Shown: positions 4,300 to 23,891 of the stretch, piece by piece
Numbering within the stretch: position 1 is the first letter of the stretch
Layout: each line of letters starts with the position of its first letter
Virus record (IMG/VR): IMGVR_UViG_3300046010_004557
Span: 1 to 25,600 of that record
DNA: 25,600 nt
Reading direction: 5' to 3' (one strand)
Source of the DNA: a virus
Notes under the pieces: model-generated
What the model saw: the letters and a program-made list of their open reading frames with translations, nothing else
Databases searched by the model: none
What the model was told of the DNA's origin: nothing
Position numbers and translations under genes: made by a program

Positions 4300-4454
4300 A
4301 ACTCACCGTTCTCGACAAGTCGATTACCACTCGGAATCTCGCGCGATTGCTTATGAAAAAATCGACCAAAGCGGCAAAGCGCGCCGGCCTGAAAGGCGAA
4401 GCGGCAGAGCGGTTCAAGCTGAAATATATGGCGGCGATACATGCTCAGTCATAA
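4284..4454 (+). CDS. Small basic protein bridging terminase and portal
   Basis: An ATG frame of 56 codons overlaps the end of the terminase gene by 16 bases and the start of the portal gene by 14 bases, filling what would otherwise be a 141-base gap. The translation is strongly basic, with many Lys and Arg, e.g. LARLLMKKSTKAAKRAGLKG, and has an amphipathic helical look. No motif is recognised. The double overlap fits the coupled gene style of the whole region, which supports a real gene; a nucleic-acid-binding role is conceivable only from charge. A weak AGGACG precedes the ATG. Confidence 0.6.
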   Translation: MDGRVKLTVLDKSITTRNLARLLMKKSTKAAKRAGLKGEAAERFKLKYMAAIHAQS

Positions 4455-6645
4455 AGAATGCCTAGAGCAGTTTAAAGAGATACAAGAGGCCGAGTCGCAG
4501 AACCGCGAGCGCTGGCTTGAGGATCTTAAGTTCGGATTCTCTGCCGACCAATGGCCGGAAAGGCTTCGCCGTGCGCGGGAGAATAATCCCCACGGCGCGC
4601 GTCCGTGTTTGACGGTGAACAAGATACCGGCCCACGCACGCCAGATCCTCAACGACATGCGCCAAGCCCGTGCATCCATCAAGGTGCTGCCGGCCGACGA
4701 CAAGGCCGACGTAGAAACCGCCGACATCATTCAAGGCATCATTCGGCATATCGAGCACGTATCGAACGCTGACCAAGCCTACACGACCGCCGCAGAGTTT
4801 CAGGTAATGATGGGGGTGGGGTATTTCCGAATCGACACGGAATACACCGACCCCATTTATAACGAGCAAGAGATACGGATTAAGGCGATCCGCAATCCTT
4901 TTTCTGTCTACATGGACCCGTGGGGAATAGACATCACCGGCGGCGACGCGAAGGTCTGTTACGTCGCGACCGAATTCCCCAAGCGCGAATATGAGAAGAA
5001 ATGGCCGGACGCGCCACAATCCAACGTCGAAAAGATGGGGCCGAGCAACGCCTCGGGCTGGTTCACCGCCAACGGTGTGCGGGTCGCTGAGTATTTCTAC
5101 ATCGAGGAATACGACGATGAGTACGTTATCGTCAACGGCGTGGCTGTTCCTGTCGATAAGTACGATCCGAGTCTCGGCAAGGTAGACCGCGAAGCCAAAG
5201 CCCCACGCCAGCGTGTCAAATGGGCGTTGATGAATGGGCTGGACTTCCTCGAAGAAGAAACCGACAAACCCGGTGAGTTCATCCCGATTGTTCGCGTGGT
5301 CGGTGAGGATTACGACATCGATGGCGAAAGGATGGTGCATGGCATCGTCCGCCGCGCGCGAGATGCGCAGCAGATGTACAACTTCACTGTGTCGGCCATC
5401 GCTGAACGGAACGCTCTAGAGCCTAAAGCGCCTTGGCTGATTGCGGATGAAGCGGTCGAAGGTCATGAAGATGAATTCGGCGCAGCGAACCGTGAAAACT
5501 TGCCCTTCCTGCGTTACAACGCATTCTCCGAGGATGGCCAAGCTATCCCCGCCCCGCAAAGACAATTCCCGGTCGGGGCGAATTCTGCGCTGATTAATCA
5601 GATGCAGTCGTCGGATTCGGACATTCAGGCAACGATAGGCCAGTTTGCAGCGTCACTCGGCGAGGTAAGCAATGAGAAATCAGGCGCGGCCATTCGTCAA
5701 CGTCAACAAGTGGGGGACATTGCGACCTTCCACTACCCGGACAACATGTCACGCGCAATTCGTCAGGCTGGCCGGATCATCATTAGCCAGATCCCGGTTG
5801 TTTACGATACCGCGCGAGTGGCGCGAATTCTTGGCGAAGATGGCGAGGCCGAACAAGCAACCCTAGACCCTGAACTTCCGGAAGCCTTCGAGGACCGCAA
5901 AGAACTCGGCAAAATCTACAACGTCGGCGTCGGCAAGTACGACGTAGCCGTATCGACAGGCCCGTCTTACGCCACCAAACGCCAGGAAGGTGCCGAGCGG
6001 ATGCAAGCCTACCTCCAAGGAAACCCCGCGTTGTGGGGCGTGATAGGCGACCTCGCGATAAAGCTCGATGACTCTCCCTATTCCGAGGAAATGGCCAAGC
6101 GTGTCCGCGCCACCATCCCCCCGGAAATTCTACAGGACGAGGGATCCGAGCAGCCCCAGATGCCGCCAGAAGCCGCGCAGCAAATGCAGCAGATGGATAT
6201 GGCCATGCAAGAGCAAGGCGCGCAGATGGAGGAAATGGCGCAAGAGAATCAGAAGATGAAGCAAGCCATCGACGGCAAGCTAATCGACCAGCAAATAAAA
6301 CAGCAGGAATACGAATTCCGACAGATGGAGATGGCCCACGAGGCCCAATTGGCGCAACTCGAATACGAGATGAAAGCGCAAGAGATGCAGGTCAAGCAAC
6401 TCGAAGCGCAAGCCAAGATCCAGTTGCAAGCTGAAAAACAATTTGCGGAGGCTCAGTCTAGTGAAGCCACGCAAGCCGCATCCGCCGAAACCAACGCAAT
6501 CCTGTTGGAATTGGCGCGCGCAACTCAGATGCAGGGCGAAATGCTCGCAGTGATGTTGCAAGAGATGGTGAAGCCCAAACAGCTCACCGTTCAAACAGAT
6601 GAAGTCGGCAATATTGTCGGCGGCGTCTCACAAACGATTCAGTAA
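4441..6645 (+). CDS. Portal protein (P22 gp1-like)
   Basis: The 734-residue product matches the P22-type portal in length (P22 gp1 is 725 aa) and layout. The N-terminal part carries segments typical of this family: RPCLTVNKI, then ADVETADIIQGIIRHIEHVS and VMMGVGYFRIDTEY, and FSVYMDPWG with the conserved Asp-Pro. Residues of about 570-690 form a long Gln/Met/Glu-rich helix (QQMQQMDMAMQEQGAQMEEM), like the P22 portal barrel that projects into the capsid. The dodecameric ring is the DNA gate at one capsid vertex, docking terminase during packaging and the gp4-like adaptor afterwards. The ATG lies inside the preceding 56-codon gene, so coupling is likely; the local Shine-Dalgarno is weak. Confidence 0.92.
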   Translation: MLSHKECLEQFKEIQEAESQNRERWLEDLKFGFSADQWPERLRRARENNPHGARPCLTVNKIPAHARQILNDMRQARASIKVLPADDKADVETADIIQGIIRHIEHVSNADQAYTTAAEFQVMMGVGYFRIDTEYTDPIYNEQEIRIKAIRNPFSVYMDPWGIDITGGDAKVCYVATEFPKREYEKKWPDAPQSNVEKMGPSNASGWFTANGVRVAEYFYIEEYDDEYVIVNGVAVPVDKYDPSLGKVDREAKAPRQRVKWALMNGLDFLEEETDKPGEFIPIVRVVGEDYDIDGERMVHGIVRRARDAQQMYNFTVSAIAERNALEPKAPWLIADEAVEGHEDEFGAANRENLPFLRYNAFSEDGQAIPAPQRQFPVGANSALINQMQSSDSDIQATIGQFAASLGEVSNEKSGAAIRQRQQVGDIATFHYPDNMSRAIRQAGRIIISQIPVVYDTARVARILGEDGEAEQATLDPELPEAFEDRKELGKIYNVGVGKYDVAVSTGPSYATKRQEGAERMQAYLQGNPALWGVIGDLAIKLDDSPYSEEMAKRVRATIPPEILQDEGSEQPQMPPEAAQQMQQMDMAMQEQGAQMEEMAQENQKMKQAIDGKLIDQQIKQQEYEFRQMEMAHEAQLAQLEYEMKAQEMQVKQLEAQAKIQLQAEKQFAEAQSSEATQAASAETNAILLELARATQMQGEMLAVMLQEMVKPKQLTVQTDEVGNIVGGVSQTIQ

Positions 6646-7491: not shown

Positions 7492-8673
7492 ATGGCTAAT
7501 ACGATCCTCACCCCCACGGCGGTGACCCGTGAAGCGCTGCGCATCGCGCATGAAATGCTCTCGTTCACCAACACTACTTCTCTCCAGTACGACTCCAGCT
7601 TTGCGAAAAGCGGCGGCAAGATTGGCGAGAACCTGAAAATCCGACTGCCGAACAAGTACACCGTCCGTACCGGCAAGGCGCTGAACGCCCAAGACACCAC
7701 CGAGGAAAGCGTGACTCTTGCAGTCGCGACCCAGAAGGGTGTCGATATGGTGTTTTCGTCCGCCGAACTGACCCTCGAAATGGACGATTTCAGCAAGCGC
7801 ATCCTGCGTCCGGCAATGGCCGTGCTGACCTCGAACATCGAAGCGGCGTACATGTCCTATGTGACGAAGAAAGTTTTCAACGCCGTCGGCACTGCCGGTA
7901 CGTTGCCGACTTTCGCGCAGATTGGCCTTGGTCGGGCCAAACTGAACCAGAACCTTGCCCCGAAAGACGGCGACCGTTGCATTCAGATGGAATCGGTTGA
8001 CGCGTCTGGCGTTGTCTCGGCCCTCACCACGCTGTTTCATGACTCGAAAGAGATCAGCAAGCAGTACCGTGACGGCATGATGGGCCGTGCGCTGGGTCTC
8101 GACTGGTACGAGAACGAGCGTGTCTATGCTCACACCTTGGGCGCGGACTTGTCCGGCACCATCAACGACACGATGGTAAGCGGTGACAACACCGTGACGA
8201 CCTCCAGCGTGACCATGACTGCCGGTGATGTGTTCGACTTTGGCACGACCTGCAAAGCGGTCCACCCGGAAACCAAAGCCGTTCTGGCCCACAACGCGCA
8301 GTTCGTCTGCACCGTGGCGACCGCTGGCAACTCGATTACGTTCTATCCGCCGATCATCTCAAGTGGTCCGTTGCAGAACGTGTCGGCCATCCCGGCGTCG
8401 GGTCAGACCATCACCGTCTACGGCACCACTCAGGGCACCGTTGTTCCCCAGCACTTGATGTATCACAAGGACGCATTCGCGATGGCGACCGCCGACCTTG
8501 AGATGCCGAGTGGTGTGGACTTCGCGGCGCGTGAGGTGTTCGACGGTCTGTCGATCCGCGTGGTTCGTCAGTACGATATTTCGTCTGACAACTTCCCGTG
8601 TCGTATCGACATTCTCCACGGCTTTGAAGCCATACGCCCCGAGTGGGCTTGCCGCGTCTACGGCGATTACTGA
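7492..8673 (+). CDS. Major capsid protein (P22 coat-like)
   Basis: The 393-residue protein has the pattern of the P22-type coat: an early segment GENLKIRLPNKYTVRTGKAL, then LTLEMDDFSKRILRPAMAVL, and the YRDG box followed by LGLDWYENERV at about 193-212, which mirrors the YRDG...FDDVLRS region of P22 gp5. A beta-rich inserted segment of about 213-315 corresponds to the I-domain that bulges from the HK97 fold in this family. The end (FPCRIDILHGFEAIRPEWACRVYGDY) matches the typical CRIA...GWKAIRPE-type finish. AGGAAC precedes the ATG. It forms the icosahedral shell with the help of the scaffold immediately upstream. Confidence 0.92.
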   Translation: MANTILTPTAVTREALRIAHEMLSFTNTTSLQYDSSFAKSGGKIGENLKIRLPNKYTVRTGKALNAQDTTEESVTLAVATQKGVDMVFSSAELTLEMDDFSKRILRPAMAVLTSNIEAAYMSYVTKKVFNAVGTAGTLPTFAQIGLGRAKLNQNLAPKDGDRCIQMESVDASGVVSALTTLFHDSKEISKQYRDGMMGRALGLDWYENERVYAHTLGADLSGTINDTMVSGDNTVTTSSVTMTAGDVFDFGTTCKAVHPETKAVLAHNAQFVCTVATAGNSITFYPPIISSGPLQNVSAIPASGQTITVYGTTQGTVVPQHLMYHKDAFAMATADLEMPSGVDFAAREVFDGLSIRVVRQYDISSDNFPCRIDILHGFEAIRPEWACRVYGDY

Positions 8674-8946: not shown

Positions 8947-10185
8947 ATGGCAAAGCTTTACATTGACGAGGGCGCTCCTTCATTGGGGCGCAAAATCATG
9001 CTAGCGACCACCGTCTATGGTGATTGCGATGCAAGCTATACGTTTTCCATTCAATCCAGCCGACAGGCATTGCACGAGGCGGGCTTTCAAACCGCTTACT
9101 ATCTCCTGCAAGGCAATTGCCACGTAGACGACGCCCGCAATGACATTGCGTGCAAGTTTCTGGCGTCCGATTGCGACGCTTTGGTGTTCCTCGACGCCGA
9201 CGTCAGTTGGGGCGCTGAGGACTTGGTTAGGTTGTGCAAACACGACCGTGACCTTGTAGGCGGGATTTACCCCTATCGTTCGGAGCTAGGACAAGAAAAA
9301 GTCCCGGTTCGCGTGAAACATGGGGAGATGGTAGACGACGACGGACTGTTAGAGGTCGAAGGACTGCCAACGGGATTCATGAAAATATCCCGTCATTGCA
9401 TGGAAACCGTGGCGAAGGACTGCCAGACGTTTGTGCATGAGAACGAAGAAAGGAAGTTAATTTTTCAGCGGACTTTGATGCACGGCACTCGATGGGGCGG
9501 AGACCTCCATTTCTGCAACCTCTGGCGAGCAACAGGCGGAAAGCTGTATGCGGACTATGAAATGGTCTTAGGTCATGCAAGCCGATCAGTGATTAGCGGC
9601 TCGCTGGCGTCGCATGTCAGGAAGTCCACCGGCCGCACCCTTCGGCATGTCTGCGACAAGATAAAGGCCGGCACATGGACGATGCGCGACCTGACCGAAG
9701 CGAAACGGTACGCGGACAACTTCTGGGGCGCGCAAGAGGATGTGCTTGCGGCCGCGGTGTGTCTTGCCAAAGAGGCAAACGGGCCGATTATCGAGACGGG
9801 TTCCGGCCTAACCTCGATTGTCATGGCGGCAGCTACCTCTCAGACCGTGTATTGCTTAGAGCACGACCCCTACTACGCTTCACGCCTCATCAAAATGGCC
9901 ACAGAGGCCGGTGTCGAGGTCGGGCTGTGCCGTGTTCCGCTTGTCGGCGAATGGTACGACCTGAGCGAATTCAAGGGCCTTCCTGAGCGTTTCGCGTTAG
10001 GACTTAACGACGGGCCGCCGAGGTATTTGGGCGGGAACAGAAAGCTGTTTTTCTCCAAGATGAAATGCGACGTAATCATTAGTGACGACGCGGACGATAG
10101 AGACTATGCCGCGTTTTTACGTGAATGGGCCGAGGATAACGATATGCAGTGCGACATTGGCGGCCGTCTGGCGGTGTTAAGGTAA
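8947..10185 (+). CDS. Glycosyltransferase-methyltransferase fusion
   Basis: The 412-residue protein has two enzyme-like halves. Residues 16-225 look like a GT-A (GT2-like) glycosyltransferase: KIMLATTVYGD opens the nucleotide-binding fold, ALVFLDADVSW carries the metal/UDP-sugar DxD (Asp83, Asp85), GGIYPYR follows, and GGDLHFCNLWRATGGKLYAD with LGH (184-210) resembles the acceptor-side motif. Residues 255-412 look like a class I SAM methyltransferase: motif I IIETGSGLTSIVMAAA (281-296), acidic VYCLEHDPYY (301-310), NDGPPR (354-359) and VIISDDADDRDY (376-387). No Shine-Dalgarno precedes ATG 8947 because the terminator lies there; ATG 8998 (residue 18) follows GGGGCG and is an alternative start. 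The stop overlaps the next ATG (TAATG). Virion protein or DNA modification is possible; the substrate is unknown. Confidence 0.8.
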   Translation: MAKLYIDEGAPSLGRKIMLATTVYGDCDASYTFSIQSSRQALHEAGFQTAYYLLQGNCHVDDARNDIACKFLASDCDALVFLDADVSWGAEDLVRLCKHDRDLVGGIYPYRSELGQEKVPVRVKHGEMVDDDGLLEVEGLPTGFMKISRHCMETVAKDCQTFVHENEERKLIFQRTLMHGTRWGGDLHFCNLWRATGGKLYADYEMVLGHASRSVISGSLASHVRKSTGRTLRHVCDKIKAGTWTMRDLTEAKRYADNFWGAQEDVLAAAVCLAKEANGPIIETGSGLTSIVMAAATSQTVYCLEHDPYYASRLIKMATEAGVEVGLCRVPLVGEWYDLSEFKGLPERFALGLNDGPPRYLGGNRKLFFSKMKCDVIISDDADDRDYAAFLREWAEDNDMQCDIGGRLAVLR

Positions 10186-10886
10186 TGGCGACTGCGCGCG
10201 ACCTTATTCATCGGTCACTGAGGCTGATTCACGTATTGGACTCGGGCGAAGATCCAACCGCCGACGAAGCCAACGACTCGCTGACAGCCTTAAACGACAT
10301 GCTCGACTCCATGAGTGTGCCGGGGCTGTTTATCTATGCTACTAAGGAGGATGTCGTATCGTGGACGGGTGGGCAGGAAAGCCGCACCATCGGCGCATCG
10401 GGTGATTTCAATATCACTCGCCCGACACGGATTGAAGATAGCACTTTCTTCACGACTTCCTCGGGCGAGGATTACCCACTCAAAATCATTCGGAGTCGCG
10501 CGGCGTATTCGGGAATCACAGACAAAGCGACCTCGACGGACTTCCCTGAATTTCTGTATTACGAGCCGTCTTATCCTCTGGGCAAGCTGTTCATCTGGCC
10601 CGTCCCGGCGCCCACCTTGTCAATCAGCCTGCATACGCAAGAGCAGTTGACCCAATTGACGACGCTCGATACTGCCTTATCGATTCCGCCAGGGTACAAG
10701 GAATTACTCACCGCCATGCTTGCCGCGCGATTAGCCCCGGAGTTTGGCGTGGCGCTTCCTCCCGAAGCACAGGACATTATGCGTCGTGCCTCTCGCGCTG
10801 TTCGTCGCGCCAACGCGCGCAACGTCTACTCGCAGATCGAAGCCCCCGGCATGGTCGGGACTTACAGCATTTACTCGGACAGCTAA
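10185..10886 (+). CDS. Head-completion adaptor (P22 gp4-like)
   Basis: The start at 10185 gives 233 residues beginning MATARDLIHRSLRLIHVLDS, with the helical DPTADEANDSLTALNDMLDSM that typifies the N terminus of gp4-like tail accessory factors; a frame extension to 10149 inside the preceding gene is ignored. The middle is beta-rich (DFPEFLYYEPSYPLGKLFIWPVP), and the C-terminal helices are basic (DIMRRASRAVRRANARN). In P22 this protein binds beneath the portal after packaging and holds the DNA in. The product is longer than P22 gp4 (166 aa). It is coupled upstream by TAATG and directly abuts the gp10-like gene. Confidence 0.75.
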   Translation: MATARDLIHRSLRLIHVLDSGEDPTADEANDSLTALNDMLDSMSVPGLFIYATKEDVVSWTGGQESRTIGASGDFNITRPTRIEDSTFFTTSSGEDYPLKIIRSRAAYSGITDKATSTDFPEFLYYEPSYPLGKLFIWPVPAPTLSISLHTQEQLTQLTTLDTALSIPPGYKELLTAMLAARLAPEFGVALPPEAQDIMRRASRAVRRANARNVYSQIEAPGMVGTYSIYSDS

Positions 10887-17806: not shown

Positions 17807-18817
17807 ATGGCTACATATTTCAGATTGCTTGATGTCGGTAGGCAGTTCTTCGACTCAAACGGCGACCCGCTGAACGGCGGCAAGTTGTACACCTACGAAG
17901 CCGGCACGACAACAAACAAGGCCACGTATCAGGATGACGCCGGGGCAAGCGCGCACGCGAATCCGATTATTCTTGATTCGGCTGGCCGGGTGTCGGCGGA
18001 AGTCTGGGGTACGACCGGGGCGTACAAGCTCAAGCTAGACAACTCGCTAGACTCGAATATATGGACCCGCGACGACATCGTGGGATTCAACGACACGGCC
18101 GAGACTTCTGCGAGTGAGTGGATTGCGTCGGTACTGACGCCGACCTATGCCGGCGGGTCAACATTCACGTTCGCGGGCGACCAAACGACCGTTTACCACG
18201 CCGGCCGACGACTGAAAATCACGGACAATTCCGGGACTGTCTACGCCTCGATTATCAGTTCAGCTTTCGGCGCGAGCACGACCGTTACCGTAGATGTGGA
18301 TAACGGCGGCTCGCTGACATCGCCAGTTACCGCAGTTCAGTACGGCGTCATGTCGGCGGTGAATACCTCACACCCGCTTGCCTCTCCCGCGACGCTGTGC
18401 GCGTTCTACGCCGAGCCATCGGGCAATCAAGCTAGCATCGTGTCGGGCGCTTTAACGAAAATCCTCTATCAAACCGAGTCATACGACTACGGTTCAAACT
18501 ACGCCAGTAGTGCCTTTGTCGTGCCGAAAACGGGCATTTATCGATTAACGGCCGTTGTTCAAACATTGACCAGTCTAACCATCGGTAAGGTCGGCGTCGC
18601 TTGGTTTTCGATAGGTGGCGCTGCAACTCCGCTAGCCGGCACCCGCGAATCAATGGGCGGGACAGATTTTGTGACGCTGAATATATTCTATGAAGGCCCG
18701 CTAACAGCCGGCGATAGCGTGGCGGTGTACTTTAGCCATGACCTTGGGTCGGACGTTACCACAAACGCCAACGGAACTATTGCGGGCATGTTTTTTAGTG
18801 GATCGATGGTGGCCTAG
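17807..18817 (+). CDS. Tail fibre with head-binding-like N terminus and C1q-like C terminus
   Basis: The 336-residue protein opens with the podoviral fibre pattern: QFFDSNGDPLNGGKLYTYEAG, TTTNKATYQDDAGASAHANP and ILDSAGRVSAEVWGTTGAYKLKL. This N-terminal module attaches fibres and spikes to the virion. Residues of about 105-175 form a linker. Residues of about 195-336 look like a C1q/TNF jelly roll: FYAEPSG, YDYGSNYASSAFVVPKTGIY, LTAGDSVAVYF and the final GMFFSGSMVA. C1q-like trimers at fibre tips are known receptor-binding heads. GCGAGG precedes the ATG. The stop overlaps that of the convergent leftward operon. It is the likely host-recognition protein, perhaps with the beta-helix protein at 763-2601. 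Confidence 0.8.
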   Translation: MATYFRLLDVGRQFFDSNGDPLNGGKLYTYEAGTTTNKATYQDDAGASAHANPIILDSAGRVSAEVWGTTGAYKLKLDNSLDSNIWTRDDIVGFNDTAETSASEWIASVLTPTYAGGSTFTFAGDQTTVYHAGRRLKITDNSGTVYASIISSAFGASTTVTVDVDNGGSLTSPVTAVQYGVMSAVNTSHPLASPATLCAFYAEPSGNQASIVSGALTKILYQTESYDYGSNYASSAFVVPKTGIYRLTAVVQTLTSLTIGKVGVAWFSIGGAATPLAGTRESMGGTDFVTLNIFYEGPLTAGDSVAVYFSHDLGSDVTTNANGTIAGMFFSGSMVA

Positions 18818-19302
18818 TTATTTATCCGCAGCACTTTGAGCCCACATGCCTCAGCCGATACGCGCAGCGGGGATAAGTCGGCTTTGTTTGAGTACGTCAT
18901 GACCACGACGGATAGTTTGATTTCCGGCTGATAGGTGGTCGCCTCGTACCACGCCGCTGGCCGGCTGCGCTGGTGATGCCCGCTTCTGTGCCCGACGTTT
19001 CCTCCGCCGTAAAACGAACTGCCGTCGCTCGGGTCAAGTCCTTTGCATGTTGGATCGCAGACGTTCACAAAGGTAGTCACCCCGACGGGCAATCCGGGCG
19101 CGTCAACCTGGGCGAATCCGTCAATGTCTAGGATCTCTCCCGGCTGTACGTCATAGATTGACATGCGGCACATAGAATATGGGTTTTGCCATATTCGCAG
19201 CGGCACCGCAATATCAACCATAGGGCGCTCTGCCGTGTGGTAAAGAGTCGTGTCTGCGTAGGCAGATGCGGACAAAATGATGGCGATCATTGCTGTTTTC
19301 AC
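18814..19302 (-). CDS. Small exported protein at the end of the leftward operon
   Basis: A 162-residue product with a GTG start and signal peptide (MKTAMIAIILSASAYA, cleavage before DTTLY). The mature part has four or five cysteines (MCRMS, VCDPTCKG, EACGL), a Gly/His/Arg-rich stretch (GGGNVGHRSGHHQRSR) and beta-like ends, compatible with a disulfide-stabilised periplasmic or surface protein. No family is recognised. It is the last gene of the leftward operon, 25 bases after the Mom-like gene, and its stop overlaps the tail fibre stop by a few bases. An in-frame TGA just upstream of the GTG fixes the longest start. Superinfection exclusion or surface change is a guess from export and early-operon location. 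Confidence 0.7.
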   Translation of the reverse strand: MKTAMIAIILSASAYADTTLYHTAERPMVDIAVPLRIWQNPYSMCRMSIYDVQPGEILDIDGFAQVDAPGLPVGVTTFVNVCDPTCKGLDPSDGSSFYGGGNVGHRSGHHQRSRPAAWYEATTYQPEIKLSVVVMTYSNKADLSPLRVSAEACGLKVLRINN

Positions 19303-19327
19303 GGATCACCGCTCTTGGCGAGGGCAA

Positions 19328-19906
19328 TCATGGCGTAACGACCGGAGCGAGGCGGTAGATAAACCTGTACTTGGACACGCGCGGAATGCGTTGAATTTCC
19401 ACGCCCGCCGGGATATGCCCACGGCGGCTATACCGCTTGCCGCTTGCCGCATCAGCATAATCAAAGCGCGGGGTTTTACGATCATCGTCCGTTCGACCAT
19501 CTGCTTCCCAATTCGCTGCTTTGTATATCATCCCTGAGTGCCCCGCTGAAGGATCTGCGTACGACACCAGCACCTTTACTGCTGGGTAAACCGACTTAAT
19601 GTGCCGGATAGCGCGGGCGATAAGGTAGGTTTCCGCATTTTGCGGAACACTATCGTCCACCCACAATCGCGCCAGTTCCCAGGTCGCGCCGCCGTACCGC
19701 TTGGCGGTTTCGCGCGGCGGCAACGCAAAAACGATCACGCCCAGCAACACGTCTTGCTTTTTCAGCGCTAACCGTAGAACACAAACACCGGGCCAACGGC
19801 CCAGATAATGTCGGCGGATCATTGCGTTTGCAGCGTCCTTGGTGACTGACACAACGACACAACTTGAACGCCATGTCTTGTCAAATGTTGGGCAATCCGG
19901 TTTCAC
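19328..19906 (-). CDS. mom: Mom-like adenine modification protein (GNAT fold)
   Basis: The 192-residue protein carries the conserved set of the Mom family: RRHYLGRWP (31-39), VLLGVIVFALPPRETAKRYG, WELARLWV (76-83), RNAE-like QNAETYLIARAIRHIK (89-104), LVSYADPSAGHSGMIYKAAN (113-132) followed by Trp133, and DGRTDDDRKTPR. In phage Mu, Mom converts a fraction of adenines to N6-(methylcarbamoyl)adenine, which blocks many restriction enzymes; the His-Tyr pair at 33-34 and Asp118 align by eye with residues considered important in Mu Mom. The GTG start overlaps the preceding stop (GTGA) after AGGAG. No com-like translational activator is seen; the upstream gene encodes a coiled coil. Its role here would be protection of phage DNA. 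Length and motifs are complete. Confidence 0.85.
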   Translation of the reverse strand: MKPDCPTFDKTWRSSCVVVSVTKDAANAMIRRHYLGRWPGVCVLRLALKKQDVLLGVIVFALPPRETAKRYGGATWELARLWVDDSVPQNAETYLIARAIRHIKSVYPAVKVLVSYADPSAGHSGMIYKAANWEADGRTDDDRKTPRFDYADAASGKRYSRRGHIPAGVEIQRIPRVSKYRFIYRLAPVVTP

Positions 19907-20391
19907 TCGGCGCTCCTGGCAAGGGCTGCTTGAAGCATATTGGCGCAGGTATACCCGCGCGCATGTCCGTCACCGTGGCCAAATAAAACAACTTCTCCAA
20001 CAGCCTGCCGCAACTCCCGCAGCCGCGCCTCTGCGGATTCGCGGGCGCTGAAAAGGTGGGCAGCATAATCCTCGGCTCGTTTGACTTCTGATGCCAGCCT
20101 CGCCGCTTCTGCGCGCAGTTCGGTAGCAGTTCGCAAATGCTCCGCTGCGCCCTCCGCGTTATTAATGGCTAACTGCGCGGCCGCATCGCGTTGCTGTTCA
20201 GCCTCGGCGAGTTTGGCGCGTAGTTCGTCATTCGCTGCGCCCATTGCAAGAATGCCGCGTGACAGGCCATCGCACTCTTGCCGTATCGACAGCACTTCGC
20301 CGCCGATGTCTATTGGCTGACCTGCGTCTACGTCAACGACGCCTTGCGCTTTCCCCAGAATCACGCCGAGGTTTTTGATATAGCCGCTCAT
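19903..20391 (-). CDS. Coiled-coil protein of the early operon
   Basis: The ATG at 20391 follows GGGGGAGA at ideal spacing and gives 162 residues; an upstream TTG at 20415 is less likely. The first 55 residues are mixed, including DVDAGQPIDIGGEVLSIRQE. Residues of about 58-130 form a long helix rich in Ala, Glu, Arg and Leu (LRAKLAEAEQQRDAAAQLAI and LRAEAARLASEVKRAEDYAA), a probable coiled coil. The tail is GHGDGHARGYTCANMLQAALA. This pattern is common in phage early proteins of unknown function. It lies between the SSB-like gene and the Mom-like gene, is coupled to the latter by GTGA, and its own start falls one base after the stop of a 16-codon mini-frame. Confidence 0.75.
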   Translation of the reverse strand: MSGYIKNLGVILGKAQGVVDVDAGQPIDIGGEVLSIRQECDGLSRGILAMGAANDELRAKLAEAEQQRDAAAQLAINNAEGAAEHLRTATELRAEAARLASEVKRAEDYAAHLFSARESAEARLRELRQAVGEVVLFGHGDGHARGYTCANMLQAALARSAE

Positions 20392-20392
20392 T

Positions 20393-20443
20393 TCATCTCC
20401 CCCCAGCGCCGCCAAAGTAGATAATGCCGTCGTGGTTTTCCAT
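20393..20443 (-). CDS. Possible 16-residue peptide or leader frame
   Basis: A perfect AGGAGG (20448-20453) that overlaps the stop of the SSB-like gene precedes ATG 20443 by four bases. The frame MENHDGIIYFGGAGGR ends at TGA 20393-20395, one base before the start of the coiled-coil gene. Its very strong ribosome site and exact fit suggest it is translated, either as a tiny peptide or to couple the two larger genes. The length is too short for any family assignment. Confidence 0.4.
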   Translation of the reverse strand: MENHDGIIYFGGAGGR

Positions 20444-20451
20444 GATTCCTC

Positions 20452-20727
20452 CTAAAACGGCAGGTCTGAGTCGAATCCGTCATCATCAACCGGCGCGGCT
20501 TTCCTCGGCGCTTCCCCGTCTCGCGGTTTCGGGTCGTACAGGTTGGCGGTGATTCGCATATCGCCTTCCTTGCGCGGGAAGGCTGCGAGGTTTACGTCGG
20601 CGTTAAGCGTCAAATAATCGCCATACTGGCCGCTGTGCATGTGGCCGATGATGGTGTATCGCTTGCGCTCGACGCCGCTGCGGTCGTTGTACTTGGTCGT
20701 GATAACGACGTTTTTAAGGATGGTCAT
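20452..20727 (-). CDS. Probable single-stranded DNA-binding protein
   Basis: A 91-residue protein whose middle, YTIIGHMHSGQYGDYLTLNA, reads like the strands of an OB fold, and whose end is acidic with a terminal DDDGFDSDLPF. That ending closely copies the SSB C-terminal tail (DDDIPF-type) which docks recombination and replication proteins. It sits between the zinc-HNH-like and coiled-coil genes, near Erf, as expected for a phage recombination cassette in which SSB coats DNA for annealing. The length is short against bacterial SSB (about 170 aa). The ATG overlaps the preceding stop (ATGA). The tail motif is strong; the OB fold is inferred. Confidence 0.65.
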   Translation of the reverse strand: MTILKNVVITTKYNDRSGVERKRYTIIGHMHSGQYGDYLTLNADVNLAAFPRKEGDMRITANLYDPKPRDGEAPRKAAPVDDDGFDSDLPF

Positions 20728-21158
20728 GCGGGCTTCCTCGTGTAAGAACCTAAAGATAAATGCCTCTCAGCATGATGAGGCTGGCAAAGCCAGACAACAT
20801 CGAGCGGGCGGTCATAGTTGTCGTGGTGTCCGTGAGACTTTGGGTTACCGCATATCACGCACGGCGCTCGGAACAAGTCGCCGCGCCTTATGGCGTTTCT
20901 GACGTCGTACTTGGCGCGTTGCTGGTGGGGATTCCGCTCATTAAAAGCGCGATGAGAAATCGCCGCTCTATCTCGGTTCCTTACATGCCACGCGCGGATT
21001 GCGCGGCTCATTGTGACCCTGCCGCGCTCCGTTTTTGCCCACGCGTTTTTGCATGGAACGCAGACATAATTACCTTTGCGCAGCATGTAGTCCTTGATTT
21101 CAATCGGCGCGGAGCAATTCCGGCACGATCCAATCTCGCCCAGGACGTACTTTTTCAT
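20724..21158 (-). CDS. Zinc-binding HNH-like protein
   Basis: The coupled ATG at 21158 (ATGA with the Erf stop) gives 144 residues; a longer frame to 21263 lies inside the Erf gene and is ignored. The N terminus has two CxxC pairs (Cys12/15 and Cys33/36), a zinc ribbon. The C terminus has CVICG (Cys100/103), HGHHDNYDRPL (109-119) and WLCQPHHAERH (123-133), the Cys/His arrangement seen in phage HNH or endonuclease VII-like zinc modules. Between them lies a basic helical region. As it sits between Erf and the SSB-like gene, a recombination nuclease or an accessory zinc protein is plausible; a homing endonuclease is the alternative. The catalytic class cannot be settled by eye. Confidence 0.65.
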   Translation of the reverse strand: MKKYVLGEIGSCRNCSAPIEIKDYMLRKGNYVCVPCKNAWAKTERGRVTMSRAIRAWHVRNRDRAAISHRAFNERNPHQQRAKYDVRNAIRRGDLFRAPCVICGNPKSHGHHDNYDRPLDVVWLCQPHHAERHLSLGSYTRKPA

Positions 21159-21982
21159 TGTTCGCCCCCCATTAAAGAGCGCCGCGCAGCGCTCCATGCG
21201 TCCGACTTCATAATGGCCCGTTCGCTGGTCGAAAATATTCCGCCACGAGTAGGCGCAACCCACAAAGCCCTTTTTGTCTCATCATCCACTTCGGCCCATG
21301 CCTCAACGGCTCGATCAAGTTCGCCGTCGCGGATGGCAATCTTGACTGCATAGATGGTCTCGAAGTAATCACGCACTGCCTCGTTGTGAGTGCGCAGAGA
21401 ATCAACATTTGCCACCCCCGCTGATTTACCGTCGTCGTCGTCATTGGCCGAGGCGATACCTAGAACGCCTATCAATGTGTATCGCTGCAAGTACGTTACG
21501 GCAGACCCGCGCTGCTGAATGTCATTCTTCGCCCCGGAGTCGTCAGGCATTGCGGACATGGAGTTATGCTCGCTGTGCCCGTCGCAGTGAGACAGGATGC
21601 AGGACACCTCGATCTGGTGTTCCTTGCCTTTGTCGTCTATCTCCCATCGGAAGGTCAGGCCGCACTCTGAGAGAGGCTGCTTAACCTGCCGAATGATTCC
21701 CGGCAAGCTGGCGTACTTGTACTTAAACGAGTTGCCGCCGCCTTCCTTGTCCTTGACGATTTCAGGGCACAAAGACTGAAACCGTGCGCGAGCAGCATGG
21801 AACGCTTTACGTGCCTGTTCGGCCTCCCAGCGTTCATGCAGGGCCATGAGCTTTTCAAGCTGGTCAACCTGCGCGCCACGCTCGACGGCTATCGTCATCA
21901 ACGCGAAAGGCGTCTGCGCCGGGGTGATTTGCATGGGCGGGATTATCTCTATGCCGCCCGGTTCAATTGATACTGCGCTCAT
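21155..21982 (-). CDS. erf: Erf-type single-strand annealing protein
   Basis: The 275-residue protein shows the ERF signature: FQSLCPEIVKDKEGGGNSFK, YKYASLPGIIRQVKQPLSEC followed by GLTFRWEID, and SAVTYLQRYTLIGVLGIASA followed by NDDDDGKSA. In P22 and relatives, Erf binds single strands and anneals them during recombination and circularisation of the injected genome. The C-terminal region (about 185-275) is acidic and helical, likely the variable partner-binding part. Start ATG at 21982 follows GAGGGG and overlaps the stop of the acidic microprotein gene upstream. It is the best-recognised gene of the leftward operon. Confidence 0.9.
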   Translation of the reverse strand: MSAVSIEPGGIEIIPPMQITPAQTPFALMTIAVERGAQVDQLEKLMALHERWEAEQARKAFHAARARFQSLCPEIVKDKEGGGNSFKYKYASLPGIIRQVKQPLSECGLTFRWEIDDKGKEHQIEVSCILSHCDGHSEHNSMSAMPDDSGAKNDIQQRGSAVTYLQRYTLIGVLGIASANDDDDGKSAGVANVDSLRTHNEAVRDYFETIYAVKIAIRDGELDRAVEAWAEVDDETKRALWVAPTRGGIFSTSERAIMKSDAWSAARRSLMGGEQ

Positions 21983-22140
21983 TTCCCCTCCTCAAAGTCC
22001 AATTCTTTAAGCCCATCATCGGGCAGATCCTCATAATCCTCATCCTTCGTGTATTCCAGGCCCCGCAAATCATCGTCAAGCAGGTCGGTCACGGTCGCCC
22101 CTTCGTCGGGGTCGAAGTCGAATATCTTGCGCTTGCTCAT
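21979..22140 (-). CDS. Acidic 53-residue protein upstream of Erf
   Basis: ATG 22140 follows GGTGGGG and the frame ends in ATGA with the Erf start. Of 53 residues about 20 are Asp or Glu and 7 are basic, e.g. LLDDDLRGLEYTKDEDYEDL, so the net charge is strongly negative. No motif is known. The two-sided ATGA overlaps show a real gene. Its charge would suit a DNA-mimic or a partner of DNA-binding proteins, but this is inference. Confidence 0.7.
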   Translation of the reverse strand: MSKRKIFDFDPDEGATVTDLLDDDLRGLEYTKDEDYEDLPDDGLKELDFEEGK

Positions 22141-22304
22141 TTCCCCACCTCCATCACCGCCAGCGCGAAAGTCGCCGCCGACACCAAAACCACCACAGCG
22201 TAGGCGATGCCCTCGCTGAGTACGTGGCGCAGATTGTCGCGGTCCATTGCCTTACTGCGAGCCTTTTCGGCAGCGCGGTAAGCGTAATCGGTTGATGTGC
22301 TCAT
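22137..22304 (-). CDS. Small single-pass membrane protein
   Basis: A 55-residue protein starting at ATG 22304 after GAGGTG. The first 33 residues are charged (DYAYRAAEKARSKAMDRDNL), followed by one membrane segment (IAYAVVVLVSAATFALAVM) and a four-residue tail. Overlaps of ATGA type join it to both neighbours. The function is unknown; the topology is probably N-terminus inside given the basic residues before the segment. Confidence 0.7.
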   Translation of the reverse strand: MSTSTDYAYRAAEKARSKAMDRDNLRHVLSEGIAYAVVVLVSAATFALAVMEVGK

Positions 22305-22678
22305 GATTCACCTCGCGCTTTAAGCAATGCGGTTTGCGCAATCTCTAGTAGGCCAACATCAAAATTGAATTTACTGGCCCAATTGACGCGCTTAGATTCT
22401 TGCAGCAATAGGTCGAGCGCTTCGTAAAGCAGTGGCGCGGCGCAAATCAGGTTGACGTTAGCGGCTCGCTCATCAATTGGCTCGTCCGTCATGTCCAGTT
22501 CGGCTATCTCAATGTCGCCGTAAGGCTCTTCGTCGCAGTCGTATTCTCCGCTAACAAGCTGAGTGAACCCGTCATCGGACAGGACCGGCGCAGATGAAAC
22601 CCCAACAATCCGAACGCATGGATATGGATCGTCGCTTTCAACAAAGCTCCAAGGCCCCGGCGTAAATTCAACGCTCAT
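22301..22678 (-). CDS. Small phage protein with TPGPW and AANxxLI motif
   Basis: The ATG at 22678, in an ATGA overlap with the preceding gene, gives 125 residues; a frame extension to 22720 inside that gene is ignored. It begins EFTPGPWSFVES and contains RAANVNLICAAPLLYEALDLLL, a pairing (TPGPW ... AANARLIAAAPELLEAL) very common in short early phage proteins of unknown role. The acidic middle (about 40-75) is variable. It belongs to the cluster of small genes at the promoter end of the leftward operon. Confidence 0.75.
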   Translation of the reverse strand: MSVEFTPGPWSFVESDDPYPCVRIVGVSSAPVLSDDGFTQLVSGEYDCDEEPYGDIEIAELDMTDEPIDERAANVNLICAAPLLYEALDLLLQESKRVNWASKFNFDVGLLEIAQTALLKARGES

Positions 22679-23076
22679 GACTGATACTCCTTCGCATCCG
22701 CATACCGCTCGCGCTGCCATTCTGCCTGCTGTTCGGCCCGTTCTTCACGCGCAATCAGCGCGGTCAGTTCGTGCTCTGCCCGCACTTCAAGTATTGCCGC
22801 GTCAACCGTCCACGCAATGCCTTCCCAGAAGCGCTTTTGCAGGTATATGGCAGCCATCTCAGACTCCATGCCGCAAGCGAACAATGCAAGCGTGCGGCAC
22901 TCGTCGGGCGTGTTAGATCCGCTGAGCATGGCTTCGTCTAAGTCGATGTCATTCGCAGTGTCCAGCCATGCGCGGATAATCTCGCCGCGCAAGTCTGCCG
23001 GAATGTCTGACGCGTCATCAATGGCGTCGCCACCACGCCGCGTATCTTCAAGTAATTCCGCGATTATGTTTTTCAT
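22675..23076 (-). CDS. Acidic helical protein of unknown function
   Basis: The 133-residue protein starts at ATG 23076 after GAGGGGAAT. It is largely helical and acidic, with LRGEIIRAWLDTANDIDLDE near the start, SEMAAIYLQKRFWEGIAW in the middle and a charged tail REERAEQQAEWQRERYADAK. No known motif is seen. The stop overlaps the next start (ATGA). It is a typical small early phage gene. Confidence 0.65.
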   Translation of the reverse strand: MKNIIAELLEDTRRGGDAIDDASDIPADLRGEIIRAWLDTANDIDLDEAMLSGSNTPDECRTLALFACGMESEMAAIYLQKRFWEGIAWTVDAAILEVRAEHELTALIAREERAEQQAEWQRERYADAKEYQS

Positions 23077-23091
23077 ATTCCCCTCGCTGTT

Positions 23092-23115
23092 AAAAAAGCG
23101 GTGTCCGGTGCCCGC
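23092..23115 (-). terminator. Weak terminator-like element in the leftward operon
   Basis: On the minus strand GCGG (23115-23112) and CCGC (23101-23098) frame a 10-base loop and are followed by six T residues (23097-23092). The stem is only four GC pairs, so termination would be inefficient. It sits in the 54-base gap between two genes, the largest in this operon, and could attenuate transcription. Confidence 0.3.
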
Positions 23116-23130
23116 AAGTGGAGAGTTCGT

Positions 23131-23370
23131 TTAGGCGCGAGCCTTTAATATAGACTGCATGGCGCATTTGAACTTGGCTGCGCGAACAAGAATTATTGCG
23201 TCGTCGGGAATGGCGGATAAAGACCCAACAAACTCCACGTCTGCAAAAAATCCTTCCAGCGCTTCATATAAATCCATGGCTATTTCGATCAATTCTTCTG
23301 TTTCCGCGTGACGCCACCGCATCTCCATGGCGTCAAGGTCGTCTGCGCGGGATTCGTCGAAAGCAGCCAC
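23131..23370 (-). CDS. Small acidic helical protein
   Basis: A 79-residue frame starting with GTG directly after the TAA of the preceding gene, with AAGGCGG upstream; ATG at 23328 is an alternative start. The sequence is helical and acidic (ETEELIEIAMDLYEALEGFF), ending with a more basic AKFKCAMQSILKARA. No family recognised. Its place as second gene of the leftward operon suggests an early host-interaction function, unproven. Confidence 0.6.
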   Translation of the reverse strand: MAAFDESRADDLDAMEMRWRHAETEELIEIAMDLYEALEGFFADVEFVGSLSAIPDDAIILVRAAKFKCAMQSILKARA

Positions 23371-23523
23371 TTAGGCCGCCTTGACGCGCAGGGCGTCGTA
23401 CAGGTCAGAGGCAAGGGCTTCGTAGGAACCAGCGCCTAAGACTTCGTTGATAGCTTCGTCAACGGGCTTGCCTGTGGCGACAAGGGCCAGAATTTGGCGG
23501 CTGATTTCAGTGGTCTTGCTCAT
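23371..23523 (-). CDS. First gene of the leftward operon, 50-residue protein
   Basis: ATG 23523 with GAGGAA upstream opens a 50-residue frame: ISRQILALVATGKPVDEAIN, then EVLGAGSYEALASDLYDALR. Similar short proteins with a VDEAINEVLG...SYExxAxxLYDALR pattern are frequent near early promoters in phages; the function is not known. It is contiguous with the next gene (TAA then GTG). The control region lies directly upstream. Confidence 0.7.
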   Translation of the reverse strand: MSKTTEISRQILALVATGKPVDEAINEVLGAGSYEALASDLYDALRVKAA

Positions 23524-23690
23524 TTCCCATTCCTCGCTAGTTAAGTCCCGGCCCGTTGTTTGGCCGTGAGTTAAGCATGGGCTAGCAATGCGCCTGAGTC
23601 AATACAATTTGTGCGATTTATTAAAATATATTTTCGACAGTATGTGCGTTATCGCTTGATTCGAGTTACTACATAATGTACGCTACTCGA
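23524..23690 (+). promoter_or_regulatory. Divergent early control region
   Basis: This gap separates the leftward and rightward operons. It is AT-rich at 23600-23636, with ATTTATTAAAATATATTTT. For the leftward operon, TTGACT on the minus strand (23607-23602) is a good -35 candidate, with a weak CATGCT at the right distance. For the rightward operon no fully convincing pair is seen. CGGCC...GGCCG (about 23550-23567) forms a short inverted repeat. The palindrome at 23659-23692 overlaps the first rightward start. No repressor gene fits here. Confidence 0.6.
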
Positions 23691-23692
23691 AT
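23659..23692 (+). promoter_or_regulatory. Large palindromic operator candidate
   Basis: ATTCGAGT (23659-23666) and ACTCGAAT (23685-23692) are perfect inverted copies, and the centre TACATAATGTA (23670-23680) is itself a perfect palindrome around A23675. The two are almost concentric (23675 and 23675.5). This nested symmetry fits an operator for a dimeric or tetrameric repressor, probably the Cro-like protein encoded from here (autoregulation), or an RNA hairpin over its start. Confidence 0.65.
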
Positions 23693-23891
23693 GAATGAAG
23701 TAACCCGATTTATTGAATGGGCTGGCGGGCCGTCAGAGGCCGCTTCTAGGCTGGGGTGCTCGCTGGCGCTCATCTATGCCATGCGCAAAGGAAAGCGGGC
23801 CGTATCAAGCAAGAACGCCAAAAAGATAGTTGCTATGGGCGGTCGAAGGTTCTCGCTGGGCAGGCTTTTGGCATCGGAAGATGCAAAATGA
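23691..23891 (+). CDS. Cro/YdaS-like transcription regulator
   Basis: The 66-residue product MNEVTRFIEWAGGPSEAASR continues with LGCSLALIYAMRKGKR, a compact helix-turn-helix of the Cro/YdaS type (AGGPSEAARRLGCS and then the recognition helix). ATG 23676 gives five extra residues (MYATR); neither start has a clear Shine-Dalgarno, and I prefer 23691 because the palindrome covers the upstream stretch. As first gene of the rightward operon it stands where lambda cro does and probably binds the adjacent operator to control both operons. Its stop overlaps the next start (ATGA). Confidence 0.75.
   Translation: MNEVTRFIEWAGGPSEAASRLGCSLALIYAMRKGKRAVSSKNAKKIVAMGGRRFSLGRLLASEDAK

Follow-up and report, generated by a model that had tools for sequence, protein, structure and literature searches.

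The closest described system is the Mom protein of phage Mu, a GNAT-fold enzyme whose gene is accompanied by com and stands last in the late region. Beyond Mu, a Mom-like protein with neither Com nor C was found in the Bacillus pumilus phage Riggi in 2013 (PMC3853051), the short-tailed Bacillus podoviruses Thornton and SerPounce carry a Mom homologue (PMC9965433), and Mom domains occur in jumbo phages (PMC7824862). Our work here concerns a mom-like gene in the window, a 25.6 kb linear fragment of the virus collection record IMGVR_UViG_3300046010_004557. It shares the lack of com with Riggi, which differs in host and phage type and is likened here by description, and the short-tailed phage type with Thornton and SerPounce, which infect other hosts and are again likened by description. 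We consider it probable, at roughly 0.82, that the gene specifies a functional Mom that acts in a com-less setting, placing a methylcarbamoyl-type (momyl) group on adenine N6 and thereby protecting phage DNA from restriction.

The gene (19328..19906, minus strand) opens with a GTG codon and encodes 192 residues predicted to adopt a GNAT fold. Pfam PF25680 (Mom) matches residues 18-188 with 107 bits (E=1e-30) against a curated cut-off of 27.1 bits, and PHROG 1384, described as a 'Mom-like DNA modification protein', matches with E=1.6e-34. Mu Mom (PDB 8bv8) is itself reached by phmmer (E=3e-11), and BLASTP aligns the two proteins with 28% identity over 165 positions (E=1e-16 for the pair). An AlphaFold model computed from 23 sequences, those of the window and related loci, has a mean pLDDT of 88, and the structural comparison with Mu Mom proposed in the preliminary description returned 8bv8 as the best match: Foldseek placed it at the top of the PDB matches (E=1.6e-11), with a human N-acetyltransferase as the next protein (1.8e-05), and VIA superposed it over 169 residues at 3.3 Å with Z 17.9, the next best reaching Z 14.1. 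By sequence and modelled fold, the product is a Mom-family protein, and its gene is genuine and to all appearances intact; it adds one more unexceptional member to an established family and leaves current knowledge of Mom unchanged.

Conservation around the active site extends this picture to individual residues. Across an alignment of 24 homologues, Mu included, all sequences are identical at H33, Y34, E77, R80, S115, D118, Y128 and N132 (window numbering), so that the His-Tyr pair and the aspartate singled out earlier are retained and the full Mom motif set claimed for this protein is borne out as far as homology shows. In the 241-aa numbering of Mu the invariant positions are H58, Y59, E108, R111, S146, A148, D149, G156, Y159, A161 and N163, equivalent to H48, Y49, E98, R101, S136, A138, D139, G146, Y149, A151 and N153 in the shorter 231-aa form; H58/Y59, E108, R111, D149 and Y159 are thus kept along with the GNAT fold. 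Work by Karambelkar in 2020 is said to have assigned roles in Mu Mom to H48/Y49, D139 and Y149 (231-aa numbering). Mu S124 (241-aa numbering) is represented by Thr93 in the window and by Ser or Thr in all 24 sequences; the title of PDB 8bv8 denotes an S124A inactive mutant, and its crystal sequence reads NSEAR where the wild type has NSESR. Compared with six homologues, third codon positions of mom differ at 58-65% and first and second positions at 17-27%, so that the former are saturated and the latter conserved, a pattern which indicates that mom is under purifying selection and kept as a protein.

Several other readings have to be weighed against these data. The strength of the codon-position signal, the retention of every active-site residue, the intact reading frame and a coupled start with a Shine-Dalgarno-like site make it scarcely credible that the gene is a decayed or non-expressed remnant, an idea that could draw on the occurrence of accessory genes in such genomes and on the failure to find a promoter of its own. 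Neither do we see much room for a GNAT acetyltransferase acting on a protein or small molecule, as the 'acetyltransferase' annotations of phage genes would have it: the fold is indeed common to N-terminal and small-molecule acetyltransferases, and several relatives carry no annotation beyond that word, but Mu Mom is the best match by both sequence and structure, ordinary GNATs score clearly lower, and the Mom-specific residues are invariant, which renders this reading very improbable.

A Mom-family DNA modifier belonging to a subfamily whose acyl group or site departs from that of Mu Mom is unlikely as well. The points that stand against a Mu-like function are the 28% identity, a length about 50 residues below that of Mu Mom, the Thr at Mu S124 and a His at Mu R154, and the last two of these also favor this reading. 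The exchange of Arg for His is found in 23 of the 24 sequences, and the C-terminal half of the subfamily conserves a PRxDY...GKRYSRR...RVPRVSKxRF pattern absent from Mu; the different C-terminal part of the window protein could alter site choice. Yet every other residue tested is invariant, Ser and Thr alike offer a hydroxyl, and Mom proteins commonly differ from one another at the C-terminus. The subfamily in question comprises proteins of uncultivated phages that begin with MKPxxPxFD (L025, L002, L027-L040 and L043) and are 54-77% identical to the window protein, mostly over the full length, with all key residues present where aligned. That its members both use a group or site unlike Mu's and, in the phage studied here, act early, during replication and recombination and not just before packaging, is a speculative proposal to which we attach little weight.

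We therefore favor a functional Mom of the Mu type. A GNAT-fold enzyme would attach the methylcarbamoyl-type (momyl) group to adenine N6 within a short degenerate site in double-stranded DNA, and phage DNA made in one cell would thereby escape restriction when it enters the next host; both the acyl group and its target are presumed to be those of Mu. The preliminary description placed this activity before or during replication, a timing that would follow if the gene order reflects early transcription of mom.

The gene order itself is clear. Overlapping or closely spaced leftward open reading frames run from 23523 to 18814, all on the minus strand, and mom is the second-last gene of this tightly packed operon. 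Promoter-proximal small frames occupy 21979..23523 (21979-22140, 22137-22304, 22301-22720, 22675-23076, 23131-23370 and 23371-23523), several with GGAG or GAGG upstream, and are followed by an Erf single-strand annealing recombinase (21155..21982; Pfam ERF 3e-17, phrog_155 1e-38), an endonuclease VII-like HNH protein with a CxxC...CxxC motif (20724..21263; phrog_2340, E=6.5e-22), a 91-aa frame weakly matched by phrog_18187 (20452..20727; E=4e-4) and a 170-aa coiled-coil-like frame (19903..20415), for which family searches returned weak coiled-coil matches and nothing significant. Behind mom, the last gene (18814..19302; 162 aa, signal-peptide-like start) belongs to no family in our searches and converges on a tail gene. 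The gap at 23524..23675 separates the operon from a rightward unit whose first frame (23676..23891, plus strand) was read from the sequence as a 71-aa Cro-like small helix-turn-helix protein, with no NCBIfam match; this gap presumably holds the leftward promoter and control region, and a scan for sigma-70 promoters and terminators did no better than on shuffled sequence. Searches of viral contigs with exact peptide patterns found no relative of the operon that shares Erf or the 170-aa gene.

The rightward genes identify the carrier as an uncultivated short-tailed phage with P22-like head genes, to judge from its gene content: a terminase large subunit, a P22-like portal protein (4441..6645, plus strand; PF16510, E=1e-160), a scaffold, a coat or major head protein (7492..8673, plus strand; phrog_283, E=8e-68), the head closure protein Hc3, a DNA ejection protein, a weakly matched possible head-tail adaptor Ad3 (10149-10886) and the tail gene that converges on the mom operon (17807..18817, plus strand; phrog_26190). 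The tail gene has an N-terminal domain common to tail-fibre-like proteins, and phrog_26190 also matches a gene at 2324-2998 of L025, the contig that carries the closest relative of mom found in our searches. With Erf, the packed reading frames and these head genes, the early-type leftward operon in a short-tailed phage described beforehand is confirmed. Close phage relatives (L013 and L014, with the portal at 81% and the terminase at 96%) are contigs too short to extend to the mom region, and searches of the window for tRNAs and Rfam families found none. Upstream of the terminase lie two frames with signal-peptide-like starts (281-763 and 763-2601); the 612-aa product of the second resembles a secreted beta-helix protein and has no PHROG or Pfam match.

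The absence of com, also noted previously, withstood a profile search. The Com HMM (Zn_ribbon_Com), which found Mu com in a positive control (E=1.2e-10), matched nothing in the window record or in 13 records with close homologues, and three cultured phages that carry Mom-like genes likewise gave no match. A search of the operon for CxxC..CxxC patterns left the endonuclease VII-like protein as the bearer of its sole credible zinc motif; we considered this protein as a candidate for Com and rejected it on its phrog_2340 match; the overlapping upstream neighbour of mom, the 170-aa frame, is unrelated to com. The control region of mom in Mu-type operons has GATC (Dam) sites; in the window, the first GATC met on going upstream from the start of mom is 1.2 kb away, at 21127, four GATC sites lie within the gene, and no promoter of its own was seen. 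The GTG start overlaps the stop codon of the upstream gene by 4 bases and is preceded by a Shine-Dalgarno-like AGGAG. Because mom overlaps its upstream neighbour in this way, we suggest that Mom would be made without Com, by ordinary translational coupling to that gene.

How unusual is such an arrangement? The preliminary description treated a com-less mom in an early operon as a surprise, an assessment that does not hold: of 50,697 phage records searched with tblastn, 285 contain relatives of Mom, with hosts as diverse as Listeria, Vibrio, Mycobacterium and a haloarchaeon, and replication or recombination operons commonly hold a Mom gene that lacks com. The Mom-like gene adjoins DNA polymerase I in Salmonella phage FSL SP-031, is found near that polymerase gene in Mycobacterium phage Ohno789 and stands behind RecT, helicase and SSB in Microbacterium phage Bush; all three are com-less, as in the window, and belong to other phage groups, with Mom-like proteins about 30-36% identical to that of the window. 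Among uncultured relatives, mom sits beside a DNA polymerase (L028, L003) or a primase-helicase (L033, L035, L037). With Riggi known since 2013, the early-type position, the absence of com and the short tail each have precedent.

Placement is variable. In contrast to Mu, the window carries mom in a leftward recombination operon with Erf, and to this extent the claimed difference from the late position in Mu stands, but the arrangement is not conserved. In L025, whose Mom is 75-77% identical to that of the window, mom shares one strand, the late one, with a tail-fibre-like gene and an endolysin gene that precede it, and Erf and NinB/Orf genes are on the opposite strand, convergent with mom; from its gene order, mom of L025 is in a late unit at the same genome junction as in the window. 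Given this late-strand location behind the endolysin gene, early placement is probably not a fixed trait. Subfamily neighbours include DNA polymerase, primase-helicase, a tRNA-like sequence or an upstream endolysin gene, and four contigs (L002-L005) share no window gene besides mom. These differing contexts give mom the appearance of a mobile accessory gene, one that occupies different positions in different phages and takes on the timing of its neighbours.

Individual relatives add observations of their own. In L002 (7700-8640) a mom 74% identical to that of the window directly follows a tRNA-like sequence and has a terminator-like hairpin behind it, resembling, when read by eye, a self-standing accessory gene. 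A 62.9 kb contig listed as linear (L040/L041; IMGVR_UViG_3300038468_000027) begins and ends with the same exact repeat, about 3.4 kb long and with mom inside it, which probably reflects an unrecognised terminal redundancy. A scan of a bacterial and archaeal genome collection for the subfamily yielded one contig only, an 8.9 kb piece in a Patescibacteria MAG (L056), which is probably a phage contig binned with that genome.

The 'other modification enzyme' with which the preliminary description supported DNA modification was given no position, and is likely the 412-aa product of 8947-10185 (model pLDDT 89). If so, the support fails. Residues 12-214 match GT-A glycosyltransferase folds (LH3, and also STIV A197) with Z about 16, residues 222-412 match O-methyltransferase-type folds with Z 15-16.6, and the gene, which has relatives in 26 viral contigs, sits between the coat and head-tail genes. 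A glycosyltransferase joined to an O-methyltransferase-like domain and encoded in the head gene cluster gives no grounds for inferring DNA modification, and we did not confirm the protein as a DNA modifier; given its location, it more likely modifies a virion protein or sugar, and it may glycosylate and methylate the capsid.

The tetranucleotide content of the window offers a separate observation. GATC is the most under-represented of the 256 tetranucleotides, with 56 found against 112 expected under a Markov model, and it is also low in L013 and L014 (0.67 and 0.53 of expected). GATC falls outside the known site of Mu Mom, and for this reason its shortage may reflect pressure from restriction against which Mom would give no protection. 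Eight of the 56 sites lie within 765 bases that cover mom and the downstream gene (19053-19817; scan p about 0.04), which hints weakly at a foreign origin of this segment.

By combining family profiles, structural models and gene contexts, our analysis outlines a subfamily of Mom that is well conserved, environmental, com-less and found in many gene contexts. Being shorter, with Thr in place of the Ser mutated in the Mu crystal and with a different C-terminal part, it would make a useful comparison with Mu Mom for the enzymology of the family.
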